Below, piece after piece: positions 12,987-62,912 of a stretch of 64,000 bases of DNA (the first letter of the stretch is position 1; every line of letters starts with the position of its first letter). The notes beneath the pieces are model-generated. The model saw only the letters and a program-made list of their open reading frames with translations, made no database searches and had not been told where the DNA came from. The position numbers and the translations under genes are program-made. The stretch covers positions 1 through 64,000 of the forward strand of contig QIBA01000054.1 of the NCBI GenBank assembly GCA_003225175.1, read 5' to 3'. The DNA is from Acidobacteriota bacterium (lineage in GTDB: Bacteria; Acidobacteriota; Terriglobia; Terriglobales; Acidobacteriaceae).

Positions 12987-13081
12987 GAGGCGAACACGAA
13001 GGTCACGAAGGGAAAAGAAGAGGTCACAAAGAAAACTCCGTGACCTTAGAGTTTTACCTTCGTGCCCTTCGTGTTGGCCTC
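12987..13081. repeat. family H inverted repeat, overlapping the 3' end of rnr
   Basis: The left arm (12987-13011: GAGGCGAACACGAAGGTCAC plus GAAGG) and the right arm (13057-13081, its reverse complement with two mismatches) enclose 45 bp. The right arm is coding: it supplies the last residues and leads into the TAA stop of rnr. The CACGAAGG-CACGAAGG word pattern is what makes the arms. Confidence 0.8.
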
Positions 13082-15546
13082 TCCCGTTTTGGTTCTTGGA
13101 ATATTGAGAACTGCAGCTTGCGTTGCACGCGATCGATCCGGTCGAGGATCACGCGAACGCGATCACCGATCGAGTATGCATGTCCGGAACGCTCGCCGAT
13201 GATCTGGCGAGTGTTTTCGTGATATGCGTAGCGGTCATCGCTTAATGAACTAAGTGGAACCAATCCTTCGATGAACAGATCGTCGAGTTCCACGAAGAGT
13301 CCGTATTTCGTCACGCTCACGATCAGCGCGCTGAAGTCTTCGCCGACTCTGTCCTCCATGAACTTAATCTTCTTCCACTCGATCAGCTCTCGCTCGGCTT
13401 CGTCGGCGCGGCGCTCGGTAGTACTGGAATCGACGGCGATGTCGTGCAGTTCATCTAACGGAATAATCTCTGTCAGATGATTCTTGCCATCTTCAGCCTG
13501 CTTCCTTTCTCGACGTTTCGACCACGGTGAAGGTTGCTGGCCATCGTGCGACGTACTCATTTCCCCGTGGGACAGCCGCCCTCGGCTGTCTTGTCGCTGC
13601 TTTGCCGAGGCAGACGCGTGCGTCCCGTCGTGCAGCACTACCTTCAGAATCCGGTGCACGATCAAATCGGGATAACGTCGAATCGGCGACGTGAAATGCG
13701 TGTAACTGGGAGCAGCCAGCGCGAAGTGTCCTTCGTTCTCCTCCGAGTAGCGGGCTTGCTTCAGAGAGCGCAGCATCAGGTACGACAGGATGCGTTCTTC
13801 GGGCTTGCCTGCGATCTTCTGCGTTAGCTTCTGGTACATGCGCGGAGTAATGTGCACCTCTTGAGGAACTTCGTGCTGCCGCGGATTGCGTCCGCTGCCA
13901 TGACGCTCGCGGCGCTCCCCACGCATCTGGAAACGCCGGACCGGCAGGTCTACTCCCAGCGAATACCCAAACGCCGCTGCCAAAAGTTCAAAGTCATAGA
14001 CCCGCTTCGCATCGGGTTTTTCGTGGATGCGGTAGAGCGAAGCAACCTCATGACTCTCGAGATGGGCAGCTACGCACTCGTTTGCCGCCAACATGAATTC
14101 CTCGATGAGCCGATGGGAGAACTTCCGCTCCGCGCGGGCTACGCCCTGCATAAGGCCGGACTCGTCGAATTCGATTACCGGCTCCGGCATGTCGAAGTCG
14201 ATGGAACCGCGCTTGACGCGCTTGCGGTTGAGAATTTTGGCGAGCACCTCCATACGCTCGAATTCGCTGACCAGCGAAGCATACTGCTGGCGCATGCTGT
14301 GATCGCCATCGAGGACGGCCTGCACTTCGTTGTAAGTCATGCGAGCGGCGGAGCGAATTATTCCTTCGTGAATCTGATAACTGACGATCTCACCCGCGTG
14401 ATCCATTTCCATGATGCAAGAGAGCACCAGCCGTTCCACTTGTGGACGCAGGCTGCAGAGGTCGGTAGAAAGCTCCAGAGGCAGCATGGGAACAGCGCGA
14501 TCCGGAAAATACACCGATGTTCCCCGGAGCCGTGCTTCCGCATCGATCGCGGAGCCGTCTGTCACATAGTTCGCGACATCCGCGATGTGCACTTGAAGTT
14601 CGTAATTCCCGTTTTGCAGCTTGCGAACGAGCACCGCGTCGTCGAAATCGCGCGCCGTCTCGCCGTCTATGGTGACGATCGGCAAGTCGCGATAGTCGTG
14701 CCTCCGCGCGACTTCATTCCGAGGGATTACGGCGGTAAACGATTCGGCTTCTTCAAGCACTTCTGCTGGAAATACGTGTGGGATGTGGTGCTTGCGGATC
14801 ATGATTTCGACATCGACGCCGAAATCGTCCTCGTATCCGAGAACTTCGATTACCTTACCCCGAGCATTCTGTGAGCCCGAAGGCCATTGAATGATCTCGA
14901 CATCGACGATCATGCCTTCGAGATCGACCGGCGCGCTCCGGCGGGCTTCCTTTCCGATGACGCGGTGTCGCGACTCGCTCGATAGAGAGGCAGCATGCTG
15001 CGTCTCTACCGATGGAACCTCCATGCCGCCGGGAATCATCACGGGATCGGTGAGCTTTTCGTCGATTGGCTGAAGGTAGTTGAACCGATCGCCGTAGTGG
15101 AAGATTCCTACTACAGTCGGATGGGCGCGGCCAACAACTTTGACGATCCTTCCCTCAGCTCTACCATCTCCGCGCCCCGGACCTAATTCAACCAGCACGT
15201 TGTCTCCGTGCATGGCAGCGTTCATATCACGAGGAGAGATGTAGATGTCGCCTTCGATCCGATCCTTTACTGCTGGATCTCGCGGGCGGACGAATCCGTA
15301 GCCATCACGATGAACAGAGAGCTCGCCGGCAACCAGGTTGTGCTTGGCCGCTGCCTTCGGCAATCCATAGCGATCGCGTCCCATTAGAACCAGCTCGCCG
15401 CGATCGACGAGCTTTTGCAGGCGCTCATCCAGTAGCCGTCGCTCCTCACCGCCACGCAGTCGCAACTCGCGCACAAGCTGCTTGTACCCAGCCGCGTGAT
15501 TTGGTTGGCGAGAGATGCGGGCCAGGATTTCTCGATCGTTCGTCAT
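13054..15546 (-). CDS. rnr: ribonuclease R
   Basis: 830-residue 3'-5' exoribonuclease of the RNB family, which degrades structured RNA. Order: an N-terminal winged-helix-like segment, cold-shock domains (about 80-270), RNB domain with the metal-binding GETARDFDDAV (D300, D302, D303), then the ERRADEAERE motif and an S1 domain (VTKYGLFVELDDLFIEGLVPLSSL). Three segments derive from repeats found between genes elsewhere: residues about 179-189 (family F), about 651-661 (family G) and the C-terminal RPTRRARR (family H). All fall in loops between domains or at the end. Upstream lies a perfect 16-bp tandem duplication, whose TAGATT ends six bases before the ATG; no Shine-Dalgarno sequence is seen. 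Confidence 0.96.
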   Translation of the reverse strand: MTNDREILARISRQPNHAAGYKQLVRELRLRGGEERRLLDERLQKLVDRGELVLMGRDRYGLPKAAAKHNLVAGELSVHRDGYGFVRPRDPAVKDRIEGDIYISPRDMNAAMHGDNVLVELGPGRGDGRAEGRIVKVVGRAHPTVVGIFHYGDRFNYLQPIDEKLTDPVMIPGGMEVPSVETQHAASLSSESRHRVIGKEARRSAPVDLEGMIVDVEIIQWPSGSQNARGKVIEVLGYEDDFGVDVEIMIRKHHIPHVFPAEVLEEAESFTAVIPRNEVARRHDYRDLPIVTIDGETARDFDDAVLVRKLQNGNYELQVHIADVANYVTDGSAIDAEARLRGTSVYFPDRAVPMLPLELSTDLCSLRPQVERLVLSCIMEMDHAGEIVSYQIHEGIIRSAARMTYNEVQAVLDGDHSMRQQYASLVSEFERMEVLAKILNRKRVKRGSIDFDMPEPVIEFDESGLMQGVARAERKFSHRLIEEFMLAANECVAAHLESHEVASLYRIHEKPDAKRVYDFELLAAAFGYSLGVDLPVRRFQMRGERRERHGSGRNPRQHEVPQEVHITPRMYQKLTQKIAGKPEERILSYLMLRSLKQARYSEENEGHFALAAPSYTHFTSPIRRYPDLIVHRILKVVLHDGTHASASAKQRQDSRGRLSHGEMSTSHDGQQPSPWSKRRERKQAEDGKNHLTEIIPLDELHDIAVDSSTTERRADEAERELIEWKKIKFMEDRVGEDFSALIVSVTKYGLFVELDDLFIEGLVPLSSLSDDRYAYHENTRQIIGERSGHAYSIGDRVRVILDRIDRVQRKLQFSIFQEPKRERPTRRARR
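13567..13593. repeat. family G copy inside rnr
   Basis: GTGGGACAGCCGCCCTCGG followed by CTGTC matches the intergenic copy at 54091 (GTGGCACAGCCGCCCTCGG, then CTGTG) with two or three changes. Read on the minus strand in the rnr frame it encodes DSRGRLSH. It lies between the RNB and S1 domains, where E. coli RNase R has a variable linker. Confidence 0.85.
14981..15010. repeat. family F copy inside rnr
   Basis: GATAGAGAGGCAGCATGC followed by TGCGTCTCTACC is a full family F palindrome with one or two changes from the intergenic copies. In the rnr frame it encodes VETQHAASLS. It lies within the cold-shock region, between MIPGG and GMIVDVEI, where other RNase R proteins have a shorter loop. Confidence 0.88.
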
Positions 15547-16271: not shown

Positions 16272-16314
16272 ACGACAACGCATTCGTTTCTTCGATCACT
16301 TTCACCAAACATGT

Positions 16315-16481
16315 TGTCATCCTGAGCCCCTATTTTGGGCGAAGGACCTCCCGAAATATTTTCGGACTTATTGCTGTATATCGGCTTTCTGGCGCAAGGC
16401 TCTGGTGTAAGAGCCAGGAAAGAGCAACGAAGTCGGATGCATTTGCGGGAGGTCCTTCGGCAAAAGCGGCTCAGGATCACA
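16315..16481. repeat. family E long inverted repeat (copy E1)
   Basis: TGTCATCCTGAGCCCC at the left and GGCTCAGGATCACA at the right are inverted termini. Inner arms GGGCGAAGGACCTCCCG and GGGAGGTCCTTCGGC are also complementary, giving about 50-bp imperfect arms around an 80-bp centre. Copies E2-E4 lie at 57332, 58751 and 62616 and are 176-179 bp long. Confidence 0.85.
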
Positions 16482-19410: not shown

Positions 19411-20022
19411 GGCAGGGGCGGGAGCATAGGACAGAGAGATATGGTTGTGTGGCACACCCAGCCTCGGCTGTGGTTCCGCCCAAGGTTAAGACGTCCGGCA
19501 CATTGTGGGAAACCGAATTTCCTGTTTTGCTCTTGCACGTTGCTTAGCCAAGCCTGTAAGTCATTCGGTCAGCGATGAATAGAGCTAAGCGAGTCTCATT
19601 TCACGCCAGATTCGTCGTGCTGAGTTGGATAGAACCACAGCGGGGGCGGCTGTGCCACAGAGCTGTATCAAGGGTCGCGTTTTTACAAAAAACCTAAGGC
19701 TTTTGTCCGACGAAAGAACTGCTCCGTAAGCACGCAAGTTTTACATCGCAAGGGCTTTGCAGGCGGGTGGATTGCGGGAAACAGAGTTGCTCAAGTGTTG
19801 TTCTGGAGCGGGGTTGGGCGTAGTTCGGCTTAAGAGGAAAACTTCGGAACTTTAGGTGCTCATGTGGTTTCCACAGTCCTGCGCGAGCGGTACACTCAGC
19901 TAGCAAAAGCAAGACGCCAGCACCTTCCCGGTTCGCTCTTGGCCAGCGTCAAGGAGCTGATAAGTTAGAGTTGGAGCTTGCGGCACTTGAACTCGAAAGA
20001 GAATTGAAGGAGACAAAACCTA
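19411..20022. repeat. 612-bp intergenic space with an inverted family G pair
   Basis: GTGTGGCACACCCAGCCTCG then GCTGTGG (19447-19473) and CCACAGCGGGGGCGGCTG followed by TGCCACAG (19635-19660) are family G copies in opposite orientation around about 160 bp. The rest (19661-20006) shows no credible gene. A Shine-Dalgarno AAGGAG at 20007-20012 belongs to the next gene. Confidence 0.65.
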
Positions 20023-33723: not shown

Positions 33724-33752
33724 GGTAAAGACGCAGCATGCTGCGTCTTTAT
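33724..33752. repeat. family F palindrome (copy F3)
   Basis: GGTAAAGACGCAGCATGC followed by TGCGTCTTTATC, a near-perfect hairpin 30 bp after the OmpA-like gene. A more degenerate relative (GAGAGGCGCGG-TGG-TCCGCGTCTCTACC) lies at 34206-34232 before guaD. Confidence 0.85.
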
Positions 33753-40435: not shown

Positions 40436-42940
40436 CTACCCAACCTCGACTAAACCATACCGTCGCTGCCAATGCGTCTTGAGATGGAACATCATCGTAT
40501 TGCGATCCATTTTGGAAATGGGAAGGCCTTTTTCTTCGACGACGCGTTGAGCCTCGGCCCGAGCCAGTTCGAGGAGTTTGCGATCCCGAATCAGGTTTGC
40601 GGCACGGAAGCTTGGAGCTCCCGCCTGCTTCGTGCCAAAGAATTCTCCCGGCCCGCGTTGTTCGAGGTCAAGCTCGGCGATCGCGAACCCATCCTGCGTG
40701 CGCAGCATGGCGTCGAGCCGCTGCACTCCTTGTGGGGTGATCTTGCCGCCGGTCATGAGCACGCAGTAGGACTTGTGTGAGCCTCGGCCAATGCGCCCGC
40801 GCAATTGATGAAGCTGGGAGAGGCCAAAACGCTCGGCGTGCTCGATTACCATTACTGTCGCGTTCGGTACATCGACTCCCACTTCTATAACAGTCGTCGC
40901 CACCAAGACGTTAATGTCCCCGCGCTGAAAGCGCGCCATGACCAGCTCTTTCTCGTCCGAAGAGAGCCGACCATGCAACAGCGCAATGCGCAGGTCCGGA
41001 AAGATATTCTTCCGAAGCTCCTCATACATATCAGTGGCGGACTTCAGGCTGACATTCCGTGTTGGGGTTGGCTCTGGCATGCCCTTGAAGGACGTCTGTC
41101 TGAGACGCGCGAGCTCCCGAGCGGAACCCGGTGCTCGCGGATCGATAGCACCGGGACGCCTGGTTGCGAATCGTCTTTGCGCCGAGGCTTGCGTTCTGGC
41201 GTTTCCTCGCCGAGTGACTGTGCCCGAAGTTTCGGCTTCTTGTTCGTTTACGTCACGGGCTAACAGATCACCTTCCTCTCCGGCGCTTTCAATCACTGGA
41301 TAGACGACATAGGCTTGCCGCCCTAGCGCCACTTGCTTGCGCACGAAATCCCAAACTTCAGGGGCACGTTCGTCGGAAATCGAGCGCGTAGTGATCGGAG
41401 TACGTCCCGGTGGAAGTTCGTCGATGATGCTGACGTCAAGATCGCCATAAAGCGTAAGAGCGAGAGTGCGCGGAATCGGGGTCGCAGTCATAACGAGCAC
41501 ATCGGGCTCATAAATATCGGGTGATCGGGTGATCGGGTCATCGGGCGAAGTTACACCGGAAGTAGATCTGCGTTTATCCTTTGAATCTGGCTTCATCTGC
41601 GTGGGAAGCTGCTGTTGACTATCGGCCGGTGAGTTATCACTTGGCTTCCGCATCAAGCGCCAGCGCTGCATTACGCCAAAGCGATGCTGTTCGTCGACCA
41701 CGATCAGTCCCAATTTGGCAAATTCTACTTTTTCTTCAATGAGCGCGTGCGTGCCGATTACGAGCTGGGCGTTGCCCTGAGCGATGTGCCGACGCGTTGC
41801 CCGCTTTCGGTCTTCCTCCAGCGATCCGGTCAACAACACAACGCGATAGCCGTGCTCCTCCAGCAGCTTGCGCGCACCGAGATAGTGCTGTGTAGCAAGG
41901 ATTTCGGTCGGGGCCATGAAGGCAGCCTGATAACCGTTCTCGATCGCAATGACGGCTGCTTCGAGCGCCACCAAAGTCTTTCCTGATCCGACATCTCCTT
42001 GCAGCAGGCGCCGCATCGGAACCGGCGTTTGCATATCATTTGCGATTTCACCCAGCACCTTCTTCTGGGCGCCTGTAGGTCTGAACGGTAGAAACCGTTT
42101 AATGGACTCCCGCACGCGATCGGTTAATTGGAAACTGATTCCGGTGCGGCGGCGCAAATTGCGGCGCTTGAGTTCGAGCCCGACCTCCAGAAAAAACAAT
42201 TCTTCGAAGATGAGGCGGCGATGTGCCGGCGTGGCGCGCGCTTCCAGATTGGCGAAGCTTTCTCCCAGCTCGGGAAAGTGAACTTGCTGAAACGCATCGC
42301 GCCGCGACGTAAGTTGCATCTGTTCGCGTACGCCAGGAGGGATGCCGTCGGGAATGTTGGGAGAGAGTTCCTGCACTACGCGATGAAGCACATTGCGAAA
42401 CCAGCGCGAATTCAGCTTCCCGATCGCTTCATAGACGGGAACGATCCGGCCTATCTCGACCGACTGCTCCAGGCGTTCTTCGATCAGGCTTTCCGGTTCG
42501 TCTTCGTTTTGTCCGAGAACTTCGACCTGAGGCTGCATGATCTGGAATCGGGTTTTAGAGAACTTTCCCCATCCTTCTTCTACCTTGCCGTACAAGGCCA
42601 GCATCTGTCCGGCTTTGAAGCGATCGCGAAGGTAGGAACCGTGAAACCACGTGCACACGATCGTCTTCATTCCTTGACCAACGACGAGTTCAAAAATAGG
42701 GATTCCGCTTTTGGTGCGGTACAGGTGGGAATTACGCACTTCCGCAATGATGGTGGCGAACTCACCAACGCGTAATTCCGAAATTTCGCGAGGATTCGCG
42801 CGGTCCTCGTAGCGGAAAGGCAAATGGTAGAGCAGGTCCTCAACGGTGGAGATCCCCTTTTCGCCAAGAATGGACGCGGCACGGGGACCGATGCCTTTCA
42901 CATATTGGAGCGGGGTGTGGAGTTCAAGCATGAAGGACAA
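40436..42940 (-). CDS. recG: ATP-dependent DNA helicase RecG with two in-frame insertions
   Basis: 834 residues (E. coli 693). Wedge domain (LQYVKGIGPRAASILGEKGI), Walker A GDVGSGKT, DEQH, MTATPIPRTLALT, then the helicase C-lobe (ALLHGRLSSDEKELVMARFQ, VATTVIEVGVDVPNATVMVI, QLRGRIGRG) and the TRG region. RecG reverses stalled replication forks and processes branched DNA. The first insertion (residues about 432-478) separates DEQHRFGVMQRWRLM from the MTATPIPRT motif; its part TSPDDPITRSPDI is encoded by a family C repeat. The second (about 555-630) precedes LKSATDMYEEL and is Arg/Thr/Ala-rich. Motifs on both sides are intact, so the protein is probably active. Confidence 0.96.
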   Translation of the reverse strand: MSFMLELHTPLQYVKGIGPRAASILGEKGISTVEDLLYHLPFRYEDRANPREISELRVGEFATIIAEVRNSHLYRTKSGIPIFELVVGQGMKTIVCTWFHGSYLRDRFKAGQMLALYGKVEEGWGKFSKTRFQIMQPQVEVLGQNEDEPESLIEERLEQSVEIGRIVPVYEAIGKLNSRWFRNVLHRVVQELSPNIPDGIPPGVREQMQLTSRRDAFQQVHFPELGESFANLEARATPAHRRLIFEELFFLEVGLELKRRNLRRRTGISFQLTDRVRESIKRFLPFRPTGAQKKVLGEIANDMQTPVPMRRLLQGDVGSGKTLVALEAAVIAIENGYQAAFMAPTEILATQHYLGARKLLEEHGYRVVLLTGSLEEDRKRATRRHIAQGNAQLVIGTHALIEEKVEFAKLGLIVVDEQHRFGVMQRWRLMRKPSDNSPADSQQQLPTQMKPDSKDKRRSTSGVTSPDDPITRSPDIYEPDVLVMTATPIPRTLALTLYGDLDVSIIDELPPGRTPITTRSISDERAPEVWDFVRKQVALGRQAYVVYPVIESAGEEGDLLARDVNEQEAETSGTVTRRGNARTQASAQRRFATRRPGAIDPRAPGSARELARLRQTSFKGMPEPTPTRNVSLKSATDMYEELRKNIFPDLRIALLHGRLSSDEKELVMARFQRGDINVLVATTVIEVGVDVPNATVMVIEHAERFGLSQLHQLRGRIGRGSHKSYCVLMTGGKITPQGVQRLDAMLRTQDGFAIAELDLEQRGPGEFFGTKQAGAPSFRAANLIRDRKLLELARAEAQRVVEEKGLPISKMDRNTMMFHLKTHWQRRYGLVEVG
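41516..41552. repeat. family C copy inside recG
   Basis: ATCGGGTGATCGGGTGATCG then GGTCATCGGGCGAAGTTA, the same tandem CGGGTGAT-words as the intergenic copies at 17013, 60506 and 61747. In the recG frame (minus strand) it encodes SPDDPITRSPDI. Confidence 0.9.
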
Positions 42941-54090: not shown

Positions 54091-54328
54091 TGTGGCACAG
54101 CCGCCCTCGGCTGTGGCTCTGCACAAGGCTCGCAACAGACAAGGTGCTTCGGGCACAGGGCTGGATTCACTGATTACTGACAAATTTGTATGTCAGTAAA
54201 ACAGGAAAGTTCATGGTGGTACGGGCTGTGCCAGTGTTGTTGAGTGTGGGCGGAGCCACAGCCGAGGGCGGCTGTGCCACCAGGACTCACTAAACGTTCG
54301 TAAAGACGCAGCATGCTGCGTCTCTACC
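54091..54328. repeat. inverted family G pair followed by family F
   Basis: TGTGGCACAGCCGCCCTCGG then CTGTGGCTCTGC (54091-54122) and GGGCGGAGCCACAGCCGAGG then GCGGCTGTGCCA (54248-54279) are inverted arms about 125 bp apart. GTAAAGACGCAGCATGC then TGCGTCTCTACC (54300-54328) is a family F palindrome. The space between rpiB and tal-pgi (309 bp) contains nothing else. Confidence 0.85.
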
Positions 54329-57281: not shown

Positions 57282-57310
57282 GGTAGAGATGCAGTATGCT
57301 GCGTCTCTCC
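57282..57310. repeat. family F palindrome (copy F5)
   Basis: GGTAGAGATGCAGTATGC followed by TGCGTCTCTCC, 22 bp after tal-pgi. Confidence 0.85.
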
Positions 57311-57331
57311 ATGCAGATTGAATTCAGAGAC

Positions 57332-57507
57332 TGTCATCCTGAGGCCCGGTTTTGGCCGAAGGATCTCCCGGAATATGTCGGACTTACTTGCTGCTTGTGC
57401 GGCTCTTTCACGAGGGCCTGAGTGCATGGCCAAAGTGCCACGAAGGGGCAACTAAGTCCGACGCATCGCGGGAGATCCTTCGCCCAAAAGAGGGGCTCAG
57501 GATGACG
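57332..57507. repeat. family E long inverted repeat (copy E2)
   Basis: Ends TGTCATCCTGAGGCCC and GGGGCTCAGGATGACG are inverted. Inner arms TTTTGGCCGAAGGATCTCCC and GGGAGATCCTTCGCCC pair as well. The centre has GCGGCTCTTTCACGAGGGCC and GGCCAAAGTGCCACG. Length 176 bp, as copy E3. Confidence 0.9.
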
Positions 57508-57544
57508 GTCGAAGAGTGTCGATTTCTAAAAGGAGTTCCACCTT

Positions 57545-58549: not shown

Positions 58550-58718
58550 CTTTCGGCCATCAGCTGTCGGCTTTCGGCCACGAAGCAGTTTGGTATCAAC
58601 TCATTTGTGGCACAGGCGCCCTCGCCTGTGTTCGTTTTGGGCAGAGCCACAGCCGACGGAGGCTGTGCGACAGTGCCCGATAAATTTTCGTAGAGACCCA
58701 GCATGCTGCGCTTCTACC
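58550..58718. repeat. cluster of families B, G and F after gnd
   Basis: B3 (58550-58582: GGCTTTCGGCCATCAGCTGT then CGGCTTTCGGCC); a family G pair in inverse orientation (58604-58630 and 58639-58675, GGCACAGGCGCCCTCGCC against AGCCACAGCCGACGGAGGCT); F6 (58690-58718, GTAGAGACCCAGCATGC then TGCGCTTCTACC). Confidence 0.8.
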
Positions 58719-58750
58719 ATGCAGTAAGCCACTGTCGTGCAGTAAAGAAC

Positions 58751-58926
58751 TGTCATCCTGAGGCCTCTTTTGGCCGAAGGATCTCCCGGAATGTGTCAAA
58801 CGTAATTGCTGCCGCGTGGCATTTTGGCCAAACGTCTGGGGTTCTCGTGAAAGAGCCACACTGGCTGCAAGTACGTCCGAAATATTTCGGGAGATCCTTC
58901 GGCCAAGAGAGGGCCTCAGGATGACA
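58751..58926. repeat. family E long inverted repeat (copy E3)
   Basis: TGTCATCCTGAGGCCTC and GAGGGCCTCAGGATGACA are inverted ends. Inner arms TTTTGGCCGAAGGATCTCCC and GGGAGATCCTTCGGCCAA are exact over most of their length. 176 bp, 50 bp before zwf. With the B-G-F cluster it fills the 432-bp gnd-zwf space; no gene is seen in it. Confidence 0.92.
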
Positions 58927-62601: not shown

Positions 62602-62615
62602 CTGCACTGTTGCGT

Positions 62616-62912
62616 TGTCATCCTGAGGCCCGATGTTGGCCGAAGGATCTCCCGGAATGCGTCGAACTTAGTCGCCCTCGCATGGCACTTTGGCCAAAAA
62701 TGCCCGAGTTCTTGGTGAAAGAGCCGCACTGGCTGCAATCATGTCGGAAACATCGCGGGAGATCCTTCGGCCAACATCTGGCCTCAGGATGACAATTCAT
62801 TAGTTCCCAAGTTCGCCGAGCAACATCGAAACATTTATCCTGCAACAAAGTGAACAGTCTGCAATCCGATAGAGATACTGCTGTAGCTAATTGCTAATCG
62901 CTAATTGCTGCT
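62616..62912. repeat. family E (copy E4) and family D after pgl
   Basis: E4 (62616-62794): ends TGTCATCCTGAGGCCCG and TGGCCTCAGGATGACA, inner arms TGTTGGCCGAAGGATCTCCC and GGGAGATCCTTCGGCCAACA. D4 (62886-62912): GCTAATTGCTAATCGC then TAATTGCTGC. The 327-bp space holds no gene. Confidence 0.88.

Follow-up and report, generated by a model that had tools for sequence, protein, structure and literature searches.

Dispersed REP-type palindromes as the very probable source of in-frame segments in two predicted linkers of an acidobacterial RNase R

Palindromes of the REP type have been described in more than 80 species, where they lie near gene ends and supply TAG stop codons (Di Nocera et al. 2013; PMC3733652). 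The same study found REPs inside genes, including those for UvrD helicase, DNA polymerase I and DNA ligase, found different REPs at about the same recB site in two Xanthomonas species, and independently stated that intragenic REPs are biased towards DNA- and RNA-handling enzymes; RNase R is absent from its main text. The presence of intergenic palindromes in frame within bacterial genes, uvrD, polA and ligase included, is therefore already known (PMC3733652). The elements described here resemble these intragenic GTAG/CGTC REPs in that they are short palindromes, mostly intergenic and near 3' ends, which supply TAG stops and in some cases sit wholly within genes and in frame. In both sets UvrD, DNA polymerase I and DNA ligase are hit, and both display RAYT association, alternative complementary stem pairs and GTGG tag variants, such a tag having been reported for O. 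terrae elements (PMC3733652). In contrast, the host here belongs to Acidobacteriota, the targets further include RNase R, RecG and Der, unrelated families occupy the same linker across genera, and one of the families (F) is a near-perfect palindrome for which no RAYT was found. The initial annotation of this locus had drawn a parallel with Rickettsia palindromic elements, which are likewise palindromic repeats read in frame within protein genes. This likeness is fair as to the kind of event; the sequences differ according to the initial annotation, the host is different, the internal share is small here (5/84 for F), and the REPs inside genes of many phyla (PMC3733652) are the closer precedent. 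No description of such palindrome-derived linkers was found for Acidobacteriota. The present case adds a phylum and further target genes to what was known. Three elements touch a single gene, states before and after can be compared within one genus, and the same linker was reached by different families across genera.

The window analyzed is a stretch of 64,000 nucleotides from the genome of a soil acidobacterium (G000), which was compared with five congeners (G001-G005) and with G008, G009 and G011. Copies were assigned to genes or intergenic regions in a 2.44 Mb sample (43% of the genome) taken by stretches, in which 2125 genes (86.4% coding) were called with our own hexamer model, trained on the long ORFs of the genome and not derived from annotation. 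Reversed patterns or reversed words were used as controls for the three repeat families F, G and H and for a family-free 14-mer test. The RNase R gene and the repeats that touch it are as follows.

13054-15546, minus strand: rnr, RNase R, 830 aa, with CSD1, CSD2, RNB and S1 domains (Pfam); stop codon at 13054-13056
14982-15009: F inside rnr, encoding VETQHAASL (aa 180-188) in the CSD1-CSD2 linker; 2/28 mismatches
13567-13590: G, a GTGG-tagged REP, inside rnr, encoding DSRGRLSH (aa 653-660) in the RNB-S1 linker; 2/24 mismatches, compensatory
12987-13081: H, an inverted repeat of roughly 95 bp straddling the rnr stop, with arms at 12989-13011 and 13057-13079

The rnr product matched Pfam RNB with E=5.5e-113, together with CSD2, OB_RNB and S1, and its best PDB match by sequence was RNase R (chain 8cdu_C). 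Compared with PDB RNase R, the query carries long extra stretches at 173-210 and 640-697. An AlphaFold2 model built with 59 homologues had a mean pLDDT of 82.5 and a pTM of 0.80; pLDDT fell below 50 at 183-194, 653-680 and 687-689 and was about 60 in the C-terminal block. The F and G peptides, which begin at residues 180 and 653, fall in the only longer regions below 50 (183-194 and 653-680), and these low-pLDDT segments lie right within the long extra stretches. The RNB, CSD and S1 domains are intact, and D294, D300, D302 and D303 are invariant in the homologues (n = 59), as expected from the earlier claim of an undamaged core. According to the model, then, F and G sit in variable, unstructured linkers and leave the core of the enzyme intact. 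The initial annotation had placed all three repeats in loops or at the terminus; F and G occupy the two least ordered loops of the model, and H, which is not internal, spans the stop. The peptides it had read from the three repeats (VETQHAASL, DSRGRLSH and RPTRRARR) were reproduced. We consider it very probable that F and G in rnr are dispersed REP-type palindromes residing in unstructured linkers and tolerated in frame, and that H is a 3'-end repeat.

The rnr copy of F deviates from the family consensus GTAGAGACGCAGCATGCTGCGTCTCTAC at 2 of 28 bases. Genome-wide, allowing up to 3 mismatches over 20 bases, F was found 133 times compared with once for the reversed pattern, and the reversed controls of F, G and H gave no match in the 2.44 Mb sample at the cut-offs used, which excludes chance. 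The assertion that F also occurs between genes elsewhere in the window was borne out by five intergenic copies.

1363-1390: F, intergenic
33725-33752: F, intergenic
54300-54327: F, intergenic
57283-57310: F, intergenic
58690-58717: F, intergenic

In the sample, 84 copies of F were identified: 65 intergenic, 14 at gene edges (11 of them at 3' ends) and 5 internal. Random placement would put about 72 of the 84 inside genes, and coding sequence is thus strongly avoided by F. Intergenic copies often abut gene ends, as REPs do; they are enriched between convergent genes (21/65, compared with 264/1498) and depleted between divergent genes (8/65, compared with 311/1498). F can be read as VETQHAASL or as RDAACCVST, and its third frame gives a TAG stop, which fits the many copies at gene ends. 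The count by location and frame that the initial annotation had called for showed that four of the five copies inside genes, those in rnr, uvrD and DNA ligase and one close to a C-terminus, use the VETQHAASL frame and that the fifth uses the cysteine-containing one; the polar VETQHAASL frame probably suits linkers better. An unpaired GTAG tag beside the stem-loop is absent from F, in which GTAG pairs with CTAC. A Y1_Tnp gene carrying F at its ends was looked for and ruled out, as F flanks none of the ten Y1_Tnp loci in G000.

The G palindrome consists of a GTGG tag and a stem of CACAGCC and GGCTGTG around a GCCCTC loop (read directly). The rnr copy differs from the consensus GTGGCACAGCCGCCCTCGGCTGTG at 2 of 24 positions, and the two changes compensate each other across the stem (C-G to G-C). 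There were 39 matches genome-wide (up to 3 mismatches) and none in the control; the sample held 28 copies, 23 intergenic and 5 internal; of the internal ones, two fall in a single doubtful ORF. Copies in ORF C30:185590 and several N-terminal matches were set aside because start codons are probably wrong there. G, too, has five intergenic copies in the window, again as previously asserted, and four of these form two inverted pairs.

19449-19472, plus strand: G, intergenic
54092-54115, plus strand: G, intergenic, inverted pair with 54257-54280
54257-54280, minus strand: G, intergenic, inverted partner of 54092-54115
58607-58630, plus strand: G, intergenic, inverted pair with 58648-58671
58648-58671, minus strand: G, intergenic, inverted partner of 58607-58630

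Ten Y1_Tnp matches were identified in the genome. One of these RAYT genes (L173, 1432-1989) lies between inverted perfect copies of G at 1383 and 1966. Because a RAYT gene is flanked by inverted G copies, G is a REP with a cognate RAYT, and it displays the other features of GTAG-type REPs: a palindrome of 20-40 bp in many copies, mostly intergenic, with a GTGG tag. The likeness to RAYT/REP systems (REPtrons) extends to the stem with a short loop and the inverted pairs; in contrast, no link to a RAYT was found for F or H. By analogy with known RAYT/REP systems, the RAYT may move G. Other RAYT loci carry repeat pairs of their own, namely GGAGAACCGGCCGCCCTCGGCCG at L174 (one copy was seen at L168) and GCGCCGTAGGCGCGGCACTC at L166 and L169.

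H had been counted as the third of three families to have entered one gene. This description is correct for F and G, each of which lies whole and in frame inside a conserved gene. In H, only the gene-side arm (13057-13079) is coding, supplying RPTRRARR as the last codons of rnr, and the stop codon falls within the element. H spans the rnr stop at the same position in G001 and G003, G004 retains just the gene-side arm, and the C-terminal tail of RNase R is basic in most relatives. Given its position across the stop codon, which is shared with G001 and G003, and given that it supplies a tail which is basic in most relatives anyway, H belongs to the 3' end of the gene and does not count as a third internal insertion into rnr. 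The sample contained 20 copies, 17 of them intergenic; matches inside dnaA and pyrG (5 mismatches) were discarded as chance.

The first rnr linker varies among the five congeners. G004 has two copies of F (VETQHAAS and VETRHAASL), G001 has a decayed copy, GTAGAGAAGCCGCATGTTGCGTCT, in which the symmetry is lost, and G002, G003 and G005 have other sequence that is possibly more decayed F. These states match the number of F copies per genome (G004, 300; G000, 133; G001, 97; G005, 28; G003, 5; G002, 3). The prediction that the segments would vary in an alignment of relatives was therefore upheld for F, doubled in G004 and decayed in G001, but not for H, which is kept in G001 and G003. Nowhere in the genus did rnr show a clean empty site for F or G, and the linker has a similar length in all congeners, so that insertion and replacement are both compatible with the data. 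Between the two F copies of G004 (L021) lies a piece similar to the sequence flanking the first of them, as a tandem duplication of the linker would produce. In G009 and G011, which belong to other genera, the same rnr linker holds sequence of the ACCGCAGAGGACGCAGAGGA type, giving the peptide TAEDAEDA; G009 contains 52 matches to ACCGCAGAGGACGCAGAGGA compared with 4 in the control, one of them within the der linker. On the evidence of these sequences, unrelated repeat families fill the same rnr and der linkers in different genera. The ACCGCAGAGGACGCAGAGGA copies of G009 in der and rnr are at C9:52468 and C5:255064, in genes that carry G and F/G, respectively, in the genus of G000.

The copies might instead work as RNA or DNA hairpins within the gene, in transcript stability or as gyrase or supercoiling sites, with their coding capacity incidental. 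The compensatory double change that preserves the G stem in rnr would fit such a role, as would the enrichment of intergenic F at convergent gene pairs, its depletion at divergent ones and its frequent abutment on gene ends. However, the internal F of G001 has no symmetry, and the same G stem variant occurs at G011:C15:36742 and may mark an inherited subfamily rather than a variant selected in place. We regard a hairpin role as very unlikely.

The original description implied that rnr was unique in this respect. This did not hold: at least six other genes carry in-frame repeat segments in the 43% of the genome that was sampled. In a family-free test, 14-mers present in at least 5 intergenic regions were looked for in 1150 genes, and 25 clusters were found compared with 3 for reversed words, all 3 of which were only 14 nt long. 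Internal clusters of at least 17 nt occurred in genes for UvrD/PcrA, Der, an FAD monooxygenase-like fusion, DNA polymerase I, RNase R (two), RecG and ATP-dependent DNA ligase; Pfam gave all of these identities but that of the fusion, which was assigned from its sequence and a partial scan. The window contains a second decorated gene.

40436-42940, minus strand: recG, with RecG_wedge, DEAD, Helicase_C and RecG_dom3_C domains
41516-41546: octamer-type intergenic repeat (CCCGATCA units) inside recG, encoding SPDDPITRSPD between the helicase domains

G000-G004 all have the recG segment, and G005 has an empty site. In polA, the segment is related to an inverted G pair; G000 and G004 carry it, and G002, G003, G008 and G009 lack it. 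The uvrD gene of G004 holds one copy of G and one of F, and der of G001 holds an inverted G pair. A degenerate in-frame F copy, AEMQHAASSM, was noted in the ATP-dependent DNA ligase (G000:C36:44313, L277). Matches of 14-15 nt in an SBBP-like protein and a MacB-like permease were taken as chance, and one of 16 nt in a LolC-like permease was borderline (all names from sequence reading).

Linkers are free in composition, and GC-rich linker codons under low constraint could in principle come to look like palindromes by convergence. This explanation is hardly credible and is refuted by the controls: the rnr copies show only 2 mismatches over 28 and 24 bases, the reversed controls were zero, and the clusters of the 14-mer test far outnumbered those of its control; a second F copy in G004 and the empty sites in polA and recG also argue against it.

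Of the 7 genes with a clear internal copy, 6 serve nucleic-acid or ribosome handling; among 40 genes drawn at random from the same length class there were 3, one of them the ligase itself. With so small a sample, and a comparison made once the list was known, this bias is suggestive. Together with the similar bias noted independently in other phyla (PMC3733652) and the basic tail that H maintains, it is what would be expected if REP-derived segments tuned RNase R and repair enzymes (altered activity, a mutator phenotype, RNA or DNA contacts by basic tails) and were kept by selection. We consider such adaptation unlikely. The segments decay, F being altered in G001 and unrecognizable or absent in G002 and G003; they lie in regions without predicted structure; and the same linker encodes different peptides in different genera. 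A broader proposal would have unrelated REP-like families throughout Acidobacteriota preferentially land or persist in the linkers of nucleic-acid enzymes, where the segments would affect these enzymes in a common way (for example, in repair or RNA turnover) and repeatedly remodel the same machinery; it is rather doubtful, if marginally less so.

Under the favored reading, dispersed REP-type palindromes F and G would have entered unstructured rnr linkers, where they may have survived because the frame was kept and only a floppy loop was altered, the inserts presumably being near neutral for the enzyme. Selection would remove copies from structured coding sequence, in keeping with the observed depletion, copies at gene 3' ends would often provide the stop, and the gene-side arm of H would have become the basic C-terminal tail of RNase R. 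The rare internal copies would then decay as linker sequence, as seen between congeners, and linkers of DNA- and RNA-handling enzymes would be hit repeatedly, by one family or another depending on the lineage. These cases show dispersed intergenic palindromes supplying proteins with new linker sequence on a continuing basis, with before and after visible within one genus. The puzzling bias of REPs to DNA- and RNA-handling enzymes of other phyla is independently repeated here, and rnr, uvrD, polA, recG, der and ligase, together with these species, form a set in which to test whether it arises by insertion, tolerance or selection.

A further intergenic family was observed in the window at 57329-57510, 58750-58926, 62606-62804 and 16314-16374, as long inverted pairs starting TGTCATCCTGAG and roughly 77-95% complementary between places.
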